From the NCBI RefSeq assembly GCF_029269265.1, contig NZ_JARIXP010000003.1, positions 140,885-204,884 of the forward strand: DNA of 64,000 nucleotides, given 5' to 3'. The translations under genes and the position numbers were made by a program. The number at the start of each line of letters is the position of its first letter. The stretch's first letter is position 1. Positions 57,951 to 61,330 of the stretch are shown piece after piece. Below the pieces are notes generated by a model. The model saw only the letters and a list, made by a program, of their open reading frames with translations. It made no database searches and had not been told where the DNA came from. Source of the DNA: Rheinheimera sp. 1928-s. Lineage in GTDB: Bacteria > Pseudomonadota > Gammaproteobacteria > Enterobacterales > Alteromonadaceae.

Positions 57951-58034
57951 AAAAATGCAATAAGGCTGAACTTTGTAAAAAACACCCAGTCTTACCAAGT
58001 GTGTATATGCCCATTCCTGGTAGTTTGATTTTTC

Positions 58035-58060
58035 GCCCCAACTTGTTTGGGGCTTTTTTA
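58035..58060 (+). terminator. polA terminator
   Basis: GCCCCAA (58035-58041), loop CTTGT, TTGGGGC (58047-58053), then TTTTTTATATA. Typical Rho-independent terminator. Confidence 0.93.
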
Positions 58061-58231
58061 TATATGAGCAGCCATTTTATCGCTGAATTGTAGGATTAAC
58101 CGACAAAACCAGCGACTTGTATTGGTAATAAAGCTACATTTTTTCAGAATAATGACAATTAAACTAAATATTTGTAGTTTAATTACAGCTCTCTGCTTGC
58201 ATTTTTAATCAACACTTGTAGAATCAAATTC

Positions 58232-58350
58232 GTAGGGTACAGAGGTAAGATGTTCTATCTTTCAGCACTAATGCGCTTAACCGCTTATTTAGTGGCCAGA
58301 AAGAAAGGCTTATTTAGCCGCCCCACTGCTTGCAGTGGGGCGTTTTTTTT
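58232..58350 (+). ncRNA. spf: Spot 42 small RNA
   Basis: From 58232 the sequence GTAGGGTACAGAGGTAAGATG and the next bases TTCTATCTTTCAG match the 5' part of E. coli Spot 42. The middle differs, and the end is the same style of GC terminator (GCCGCCCCACTG... GTGGGGCG and an eight-T run). It lies downstream of polA and upstream of engB, the conserved location. Spot 42 is an Hfq-dependent regulator of carbon-metabolism mRNAs, repressed by CRP in E. coli. A TAGAAT -10 lies at 58219-58224; no clear CRP site was found. The length is about 119 nt against 109 in E. coli. Confidence 0.95.
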
Positions 58351-58435
58351 GTCTGTTGATCAGAAAAACTGAAATAAAACTAGATTTTTTAGAGCAAATA
58401 CTTCAAACATTCATAATTCTATGTATAATGGCGTT

Positions 58436-58536
58436 GTCTTGTTAATCCAAGACACCCTGTTGATTTGAAATTATTGAATAGCTTCTCCCCGTTTGCTATG
58501 ACCGGCCTCCTCAAAAAGGGCCGGTTTTCTTTTTTC
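58436..58536 (+). ncRNA. Candidate small RNA between spf and engB
   Basis: A perfect -10 TATAAT lies at 58424-58429, so transcription should start near 58436. The predicted RNA of about 100 nt has a 5' hairpin TGTCTTG/CAAGACA (58435-58441 with 58448-58454), a mostly single-stranded U-rich middle, and a terminator stem ACCGGCC (58501-58507)/GGCCGGT (58519-58525) with a T-rich tail. No open reading frame of note. The promoter, hairpins and terminator are seen; that it is a trans-acting RNA is inferred. It is not an extended Spot 42, whose own terminator ends at about 58350. Confidence 0.68.
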
Positions 58537-58599
58537 TGGTCCATGAACAACTGAACTGACCATCTCAGGAGACTTTGCTTTGCTGTCCTGATTAACAGC

Positions 58600-58630
58600 C
58601 AAAAAAAAGCAGAGCCAATGCTCTGCTTTT
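58600..58630 (-). terminator. engB terminator
   Basis: On the minus strand AAAAGCAGAGC (58630-58620), loop ATTG, GCTCTGCTTTT (58615-58605), continuing into a run of eight T. Eleven-bp perfect stem 26 bp after the engB stop codon. Confidence 0.93.
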
Positions 58631-58655
58631 CAGAATTTAAACACTACACAAACAC

Positions 58656-60206: not shown

Positions 60207-60246
60207 TGTGAGATATATCTCACATCGCTGTAAGACATCGCTTACA
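60207..60246. promoter_or_regulatory. Two GacA/UvrY boxes upstream of a Csr-type RNA
   Basis: Two 18-bp palindromes, TGTGAGATATATCTCACA (60207-60224) and TGTAAGACATCGCTTACA (60229-60246). The second is an exact TGTAAG-N6-CTTACA, the published binding site of the GacA/UvrY response regulator; the first differs by one A-to-G (T-to-C) change in each arm and is a perfect palindrome. Centres are 22 bp apart, two helical turns, on the same DNA face. They precede the RNA gene below. Confidence 0.9.
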
Positions 60247-60342
60247 AATCGCTGCAGCAGCATAAAAACCAACCTAACTGATTGATTAATAAAGACATTG
60301 CAAAAAAGTTCATTTTTTTTGTACTTTTTTTATACCGTTGTA

Positions 60343-60370
60343 TTGCCATTCTGAAAAATCGGAGTAGATT
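60343..60370 (+). promoter_or_regulatory. Probable promoter of the Csr-type RNA
   Basis: TTGCCA (60343-60348, 5/6 of the -35 consensus), 16-bp spacer, TAGATT (60365-60370). It places the start near 60377, at the foot of a 5' hairpin, with the GacA boxes centred about 150 bp upstream, comparable to csrB and csrC of E. coli. The choice of -10 is tentative. Confidence 0.5.
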
Positions 60371-60376
60371 GAAGTC

Positions 60377-60669
60377 CGTTACATTTAGTAACGATTAAAA
60401 ACACGGAAAGCAGGCACGGAAAGCAGCAGTGCATCAGTACGTTTTTTACAGCATCACCATGATGACAGTGTGTATTTTACACAGCGCAAGGACGGACCAC
60501 TAAGTATCAGGATGATCGCGAATAATTATTCTCATAGGGAATTTGCGTAAAAATATAGGGAATTTGTGCAGACAGGGTGTTGAACTCCCGTCAGGACGAC
60601 TTCAAGCAGATTATGTGTCGCGCTAGACACCTTATATAGAGGGCGGTAACATCTTACACCGCCCTTTTT
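60377..60669 (+). ncRNA. CsrB/CsrC/RsmZ-type RNA (CsrA-sequestering small RNA)
   Basis: A region of about 290 nt without ORFs containing eight GGA motifs (60405, 60418, 60490, 60494, 60510, 60538, 60559, 60594). Several are in canonical CsrA contexts: ACGGA three times, CAGGATG, CAGGACG and AGGGAATTTG twice. A 5' hairpin CGTTAC-ATTTA-GTAACG (60377-60393) opens it and a terminator GGGCGGT/ACCGCCC with TTTTTATTTAT closes it. The upstream GacA boxes fix the family: RNAs of this kind bind and titrate the translational repressor CsrA/RsmA. E. coli csrC is located at the matching engB-yihI interval. CsrA binding is inferred, not shown. Confidence 0.85.
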
Positions 60670-60672
60670 ATT
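60641..60672 (+). terminator. Terminator of the Csr-type RNA
   Basis: GGGCGGT (60641-60647), 10-nt loop, ACCGCCC (60658-60664), then TTTTTATTTAT. It ends 11 bp before the methyltransferase start codon. Confidence 0.9.
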
Positions 60673-60682
60673 TATCCTCACC

Positions 60683-61330
60683 ATGAATTCAGCGTGCCCA
60701 CTTTGTTCAGCATCAGAAATACAGCCTTTTTGCAGCGATAAAAGACGTGCTTACTTTCAATGTCAGCAGTGTTTTCTGGTATTTGCTGACCGTACCACCT
60801 TGCTGACTGCCGAACAGGAAAAAGCCCAATACGATTTACATCAAAACCAATTGGATGATCCAGGCTACCGTCAGTTTTTATCCCGTTTATCTTTGCCTCT
60901 GCTCAGCACTCTTAAACCTGAGCAACATACCGGATTGGATTTTGGGTGTGGCCCCGGGCCCTTATTGGCACAAATGCTCAGCGAAGCAGGTAAACAAATG
61001 CTGGTTTGGGATCCATTTTATGCGCCGGAGCCTCATGCCCTGCAGCAAAAATACCATTTTGTCAGTTGTACTGAAGCCATAGAACATTTTATCAACCCAG
61101 CGAAAGAATGGTCTTTATGGCTGGATTTACTCTTGCCCGAAGGCGTGTTGGCTTTGATGACCAAACGCTATACAGAGCAGAGCAGCTTCAACAACTGGCA
61201 TTATAAAAACGACCCAACCCATATCAGTTTTTTCCACCAGCGCACTTTTGAATTTTTGGCGAAGCGGGATAATTTTGCATTACATTTTCCAGCCGATGAT
61301 GTGGTGATATTTAAAAAACGAAATACCTAG
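60683..61330 (+). CDS. Class I SAM-dependent methyltransferase with N-terminal zinc-ribbon
   Basis: A 215-aa protein. N-terminal cysteine pairs (CPLC, then CSDK and CQQC) suggest a zinc ribbon. From about residue 75 comes a Rossmann methyltransferase fold, motif I GLDFGCGPGPLLAQM, acidic post-I region VWDPFYAPE and a later CTEAIEHFINP. The sequence around HFHQ/NDPTHISFFHQ resembles methyltransferase type 11/12 proteins. The target is unknown. The ATG comes 11 bp after the sRNA terminator with no good ribosome-binding site, so it may have its own weak promoter within the RNA gene or rely on read-through. Confidence 0.85.
   Translation: MNSACPLCSASEIQPFCSDKRRAYFQCQQCFLVFADRTTLLTAEQEKAQYDLHQNQLDDPGYRQFLSRLSLPLLSTLKPEQHTGLDFGCGPGPLLAQMLSEAGKQMLVWDPFYAPEPHALQQKYHFVSCTEAIEHFINPAKEWSLWLDLLLPEGVLALMTKRYTEQSSFNNWHYKNDPTHISFFHQRTFEFLAKRDNFALHFPADDVVIFKKRNT

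Follow-up and report, generated by a model that had tools for sequence, protein, structure and literature searches.

Introduction

In Escherichia coli K-12, csrC is found in the gene order polA-spf-yihA-csrC-yihI, and its product is a trans-acting RNA. A UvrY site is located upstream of csrC, as at the Rheinheimera RNA gene described here; the E. coli site has a weaker symmetry than the two exact boxes of Rheinheimera (PMC4682653). UvrY- or VarA-dependent antagonists of CsrA are also described in Shewanella oneidensis (CsrB1 and CsrB2) and Vibrio cholerae (CsrB, CsrC and CsrD) (PMC11045786, PMC6550530), and the three V. cholerae RNAs carry 28, 23 and 23 GGA motifs, unlike the RNA of Rheinheimera (PMC6550530). 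In Alteromonas macleodii, a marine relative, Aln1a-c have been proposed as CsrA-sequestering RNAs with A(N)GGA motifs and reach very high read counts; these are three RNAs out of one 404-bp region, which is a difference from the locus presented here (PMC5864184).

No publication linking Rheinheimera to CsrB was found in a search that covered mostly open-access literature, so an earlier prediction in relatives is possible, and the only co-mention of Rheinheimera, CsrA and sRNA in the literature searched was a quorum-sensing review; csrC and yihI occur together in two of the papers covered. A 2006 study reportedly included prediction work on Csr RNAs. In this analysis, the region 60377-60669 of the window (the whole 64,000-nt stretch of Rheinheimera sp. 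1928-s DNA that was analysed) is considered very probably a previously unannotated RNA gene, the local version of E. coli CsrC.

Genomic context of the RNA gene

The features of the locus are listed in Table 1. The genes are arranged as polA, engB/yihA (-), a diheme cytochrome c gene (+), the RNA gene (+), a methyltransferase gene (+) and yihI (+), with the next start codon 13 nt past the terminator end. E. coli csrC lies in the same interval and on the same strand, that of yihI, so the csrC position assigned to the RNA in the original prediction was borne out. The same prediction spoke of an engB-yihI interval; the RNA is indeed located there, but engB and yihI are not immediate neighbours because the cytochrome c, RNA and methyltransferase genes lie in between, the two protein genes being a difference from the E. 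coli interval.

Table 1. Features of the csrC-type locus of Rheinheimera sp. 1928-s, in window coordinates.
Feature	Position	Strand	Remarks
UvrY/GacA box 1	60207-60224	+	TGTGAGATATATCTCACA; centre about -162 from the inferred start
UvrY/GacA box 2	60229-60246	+	TGTAAGACATCGCTTACA; 4 bp after box 1; centre about -140 (inferred start near 60377)
Promoter-like site	60343-60370	+	-35 TTGCCA, 16 nt, -10 TAGATT (relatives: TAAATT)
Predicted small RNA gene	60377-60669	+	about 293 nt; ends inferred from the -10 position (start) and the terminator (3' end)
5' hairpin	60377-60393	+	GTTAC-N5-GTAAC core; stem invariant in the genus
GGA site 1	60405-60407	+	intact in 20/22 by column
Hairpin	60414-60432	+	GCAC-GGAAAGCAGCA-GTGC; stem mostly invariant
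GGA site 2	60418	+	22/22; inside hairpin 60414-60432
GGA sites 3 and 4	60490-60496	+	site 3 at 60490 (22/22), site 4 at 60494 (12/22)
CsrA-type hairpin	60506-60516	+	AUC-AGGAU-GAU; 98.8% of cells paired; both-side changes in 2/3 pairs
GGA site 5	60510	+	in CsrA-type hairpin 60506-60516
Two copies of a 21-nt unit	60534-60575	+	carry GGA sites 6 (60538) and 7 (60559), each 22/22
CsrA-type hairpin	60590-60600	+	GUC-AGGAC-GAC; 94.9% of cells paired; both-side changes in 3/3 pairs
GGA site 8	60594	+	22/22; in CsrA-type hairpin 60590-60600
Hairpin before the terminator	60615-60630	+	GUGUC-GCGCUA-GACAC; both-side changes in 2/3 predicted pairs
Rho-independent terminator	60640-60669	+	both-side changes in 7/7 pairs, 28 distinct rows
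Methyltransferase gene	60683-61330	+	between the RNA and yihI

DNA homologous to 60377-60669 is present in all 22 Rheinheimera genomes searched, and the core of the RNA was matched in 17 stretches, 12 from Rheinheimera and 5 from unclassified gammaproteobacterial MAGs. Three short DNA matches in genomes outside the genus (G028, G040 and G044), covering 25-52 query bases, were considered fortuitous. A covariance model named R1, built from the 22 Rheinheimera rows only, scores 336 bits at 60370-60673, the window sequence itself being among its training rows. The stretch had been described as free of ORFs, and no ORF is conserved across the 22 genomes of the genus: the longest ones vary in place, length and sequence, and a small-ORF reading of the locus was dropped on these grounds. 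The promoter-like site is conserved in the genus alignment; the count of such sites in the region was not above shuffles in the pattern scan.

UvrY/GacA boxes and regulators

Two GacA/UvrY sites had been predicted upstream of the RNA, and both turned out to be exact. The pattern TGTRAGN6CTYACA has three exact sites in the entire 4.64 Mb genome, where the reversed control pattern has none; two of these are the boxes before the RNA gene and the third is located upstream of a CsrB-like gene. The 18-mer of box 1 is identical to that third box (G000:C12:486953). Regarding the regulators, the genome presents one CsrA match and a UvrY homologue with 62% identity to E. coli UvrY, above the NCBIfam cut-off.

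The CsrB-like gene with the same 18-mer box is found at L031:2454-2975 (G000:C12:486953-487474), and the bounds of its RNA, about 487118-487474, were set by eye. It resembles the RNA at the csrC position in the identical box, a similar distance, a terminator-like end and many GGA motifs, and differs from it in its 22 GGA motifs and its other locus. It reached 45 bits with the Rfam CsrB model RF00018, whose cut-off is 71 bits, and was matched neither by R1 nor by R2, the core model introduced below.

Over the 22 genomes of the genus there are 52 exact boxes, compared with six occurrences of the reversed control pattern. Of these, 24 belong to the RNA locus in 19 genomes and 20 are next to an RF00018 match; one is in G021 and seven are elsewhere, and exact boxes in the genus are essentially confined to the RNA gene and the CsrB-like gene. 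Box 1 is exact in 18/22 genomes and box 2 in 6/22, being degenerate or absent elsewhere, and at least one exact box is found at the RNA locus in 19/22. Among the other three genomes, a deletion runs across both boxes in G014, G013 shows a single mismatch, and the contig of G018 starts inside the region. In 20 of the 22 genomes an RF00018 match has an exact box next to it, and no RF00018 match in the genus exceeds the cut-off. In G003 the RF00018 match has no exact box beside it, and G021 has one extra copy of the box 18-mer, its only RF00018 match being one of 35 nt elsewhere.

GGA motifs

There are eight GGA motifs in 60377-60669 and nine in 60207-60669. Dinucleotide shuffles gave a mean of 4.55 (P = 0.034) and base shuffles a mean of 4.85 (P = 0.084), and when both strands of the window were scanned in 12742 overlapping stretches of equal length, 103 had at least eight motifs, the window mean being 2.5. 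Thus, the count of eight in the original prediction is correct, but its expectation of about 3.5 falls between the window mean and the higher shuffle means. The excess of GGA by itself is modest and was dropped as sole evidence because it is too weak (P = 0.034). The RNA is called GGA-poor because it has 8 motifs in 293 nt, compared with 22 in 357 nt in the CsrB-like RNA of the same genome and 14 in 246 nt in E. coli CsrC.

Conservation was more informative, and the persistence of these motifs in related genomes, which had been set as a test of the prediction, was observed across the genus. Six of the eight GGA motifs are invariant by column in the 22 genomes, versus 46 of the 294 triplets overall (hypergeometric P = 2.4e-4), and GGA has more invariant copies than any other triplet while its flanks vary; for instance, the base preceding site 7 can be G, A, C or T and the GGA itself is constant. 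In the two rows where site 1 is not intact by column (L004 and L008), the motif is kept beside a gap or shifted by an indel, and each genome of the genus carries 7 to 9 motifs. Judged from these alignments, the conservation of GGA is stronger evidence than its count. In one genome (L010 = G016, within 1519-1841), a third copy of the 21-nt unit, ATAGGGAATTTGCGTAAAAAT, provides one more GGA site, so the number of sites is changeable by tandem duplication.

Predicted structure and covariation

The predicted folding of the RNA is somewhat better than that of shuffled sequences (z = -2.24, with 1 of 200 shuffles as good). The 5' hairpin and the Rho-independent terminator anticipated from the single sequence are both present; the terminator was not listed by the pattern scan, its 10-nt loop against the 8 nt allowed being the probable cause. 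To assess covariation, A2, an alignment of Rheinheimera with other genera of the family (29 sequences in all), was used; it was fitted to the R1 structure and is hence biased towards it. RNAalifold on A2 predicted 14 pairs, 13 of them changed on both sides. Over four named helices with 18 pairs in total, 97.5% of cells are paired and 16 pairs show both-side changes. The covariation score is 0.517; shuffles scored 0.232 and slid versions no more than 0.119. None of 500 shuffles reached the value of the alignment for paired cells, for pairs or cells changed on both sides, or for the covariation score; on the measure of further pair types the alignment was not above shuffles (286/500).

Compensatory changes occur in the two GGA-loop hairpins, in the terminator and in the 5' hairpin (both-side changes in 4/5 pairs of the family alignment). 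The hairpin at 60414-60432 says little about covariation since its stem is mostly invariant. A3, a MAFFT alignment of the core, has rows likewise picked by R1 and excludes L107 (partial) and L098 (the same row as L097); here, the sole helix retained by RNAalifold was the AUC-AGGA-GAU hairpin. In the fold of the single sequence, the GGA at 60510 is paired within a different helix, with an unpaired probability of 0.06, and some other GGAs are half open. Over the 22 genomes, GGA has a mean openness of 0.57, versus 0.43 for the average triplet, and is higher in 22/22; it is more open than AGG/GAG triplets in 19/22. Regarding the idea that the GGAs fall in hairpin loops, covariation favours it for two sites, whereas the single-sequence fold agrees only in part and pairs 60510.

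These data also bear on another function for the RNA. It could be a UvrY-controlled sRNA acting mainly by base-pairing with mRNAs, CsrA binding being secondary, since conservation around AAGUAUCAGGACGAUCGCGAAUAAU extends past its own GGA and there are only 8 GGA motifs versus 22 in the CsrB-like RNA. However, it is GGA that heads the triplets in invariant copies while its flanks vary, two hairpins with compensatory changes are built around AGGA loops, and the locus is the csrC locus, which together make such a role improbable.

Relation to E. coli CsrC and the Rfam models

At gathering score, no Rfam family was found in the whole window. This includes 57951-58655, where Spot 42 was not recognised; in E. 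coli, the Spot 42 RNA gene lies between polA and yihA. The models RF00084 (CsrC) and RF00018 do not match the RNA locus either. The search with Rfam covariance models suggested in the original prediction was run around the gene with E up to 10. It gave ten matches, none of them to CsrB, CsrC or Rsm; all were to other families and scored far under the respective cut-offs. Among the matches listed, RF00084 had 33 weak ones in the genus (19/22 genomes), many of terminator size and none at the RNA locus.

In the opposite direction, R1 run with filters off scored no higher than 3.6 bits inside E. coli csrC on the strand of that gene, and its match at E. coli L079:791-944 (10.9 bits) was rejected since it overlaps spf, not csrC. 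Sub-threshold RF00084 matches overlap R1/R2 matches in L180 (24.4 bits), L164 (20.7), L186 (19.2) and L183 (18.7), with a cut-off of 61; these are the same locus in other families, and the bridge to RF00084 is weak. As the Rfam CsrC model and R1 see no direct similarity, what ties the RNA to E. coli csrC is its position and its control elements. The RNA and CsrC are alike in locus, strand, GGA motifs and terminator-like 3' end; orthology is therefore claimed by position and regulation, and a common sequence descent seems plausible.

Proposed function

The sequence-level support consists of the boxes, the promoter-like site, the covarying hairpins, the invariant GGAs, the terminator, the conserved locus and the csrA and uvrY genes. 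Taken together, it points with high confidence to a UvrY-driven, trans-acting and CsrA-sequestering RNA of the CsrB/CsrC/Rsm kind at the csrC position. The most economical reading appears to be that this RNA stands at the csrC locus beside a GGA-rich CsrB in the same genome, and by comparison alone its assignment as a new GGA-poor member of this kind is well supported. The csrB/csrC/rsmXYZ logic originally proposed is supported, given boxes specific to two Csr-like genes, conserved GGAs, two of them in covarying loops, and the csrC locus. Notable are the small number of GGA motifs, the pair of exact boxes, the gap in Rfam and a linkage to yihI that persists.

In the proposed mechanism, phosphorylated UvrY would bind both boxes, which are centred some 160 and 140 bp before the start, and would activate the promoter to produce a terminated RNA of about 293 nt. 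This RNA may display seven to eight GGA sites, at least two of them as AGGA(C/U) loops on short stems. It would bind and sequester CsrA, and free CsrA would fall, jointly with the action of the richer CsrB-like RNA (22 GGA).

Rheinheimera would thereby gain a second UvrY-controlled Csr RNA. Furthermore, several families of the order seem to have csrC-type RNAs at one shared locus, with the Rfam CsrC model below its cut-off in the loci tested; alignments and covariance models are supplied, with which annotation could find them. The pair also offers a testable contrast, a GGA-poor sponge next to a GGA-rich one with one switch for both.

Distribution and linkage to yihI

R1 matched 46 of 196 genomes of the family (19 of 52 genera), 38 of them outside Rheinheimera. 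In the 30 family loci inspected from these 46 genomes, yihI was always downstream on the RNA strand (30/30; 22/22 for loci outside the genus), and engB was within the 1.5 kb flank in 20/30, a comparison biased by yihI being nearer to the RNA. In two Rheinheimera loci (L083 and L085 = G005 and G013) engB is absent from this flank and yihI still follows the RNA. Among 43 yihI-upstream regions from outside the genus, 24 R1 matches (E up to 1) were obtained in 23 regions, all on the yihI strand, and the remaining 20 had no match at this threshold.

At the level of the order, 17 of 394 genomes gave an R1 match. Eleven additional loci were inspected from this search: nine had yihI, one was cut by the contig end and in one none of the queried genes was found. 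R2 is a core model of 27 rows, which include the genomes behind L140, L163, L170, L176 and L204-L208; it gave one match each in 46/394 genomes and 15/114 genera. Searches over 40 genomes used stricter filters. In the 30 R2 loci inspected from those 46 genomes, a set that overlaps with that of R1, yihI was downstream in 28 and the other two had engB upstream; leaving out the five from training genomes (L204-L208), yihI was found in 23/25. Since most genomes of the order sample had no match (377/394 with R1, 348/394 with R2), the two models cover only part of the order.

The boxes are less widespread. Exact ones were found in 5 of the 30 R2 loci across the order, three from Rheinheimera and two from one other genus. 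A box with at most one mismatch was present in 2 of the 43 yihI-upstream regions outside the genus, so no conservation of the boxes is claimed beyond near genera. As an impression only, the degenerate boxes of L209, L212 and L218 resemble the E. coli csrC site.

Because yihI follows the RNA in 30/30 and 28/30 loci, versus 20/30 for engB, a coupling of both genes may be considered: UvrY-driven read-through past the csrC terminator could feed yihI, which encodes an activator of the Der GTPase, so that ribosome assembly would be tuned in cis and CsrA titrated in trans. This is a speculative and rather unlikely addition to the proposed function. The same linkage, with yihI near the RNA in 30/30 loci and engB in 20/30 (with the bias already mentioned), and the short distance from the terminator to the next start codon would also fit a role as 5' leader or attenuator, controlling read-through into the methyltransferase gene and yihI. 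Nevertheless, the RNA persists whether the methyltransferase gene or yihI comes directly after it, the terminator covaries in 7/7 pairs, and E. coli csrC at the equivalent place gives a trans-acting RNA; a leader function is very improbable for these reasons. The modest GGA enrichment alone (P = 0.034) and the lack of an Rfam CsrB/CsrC match at the locus could point to a remnant of csrC in decay, or to a spacer that is rich in GGA by chance. Either is hardly credible when the whole genus, and in part other families, retain the promoter-like site, hairpins, terminator and GGAs. A CsrA-sequestering RNA at the csrC locus is thus the preferred reading. As for the neighbouring methyltransferase gene, it was not found in the RNA-yihI interval of four Rheinheimera loci (L083, L085, L086 and L087), and it also lies between the RNA and yihI at loci of other genera and families.
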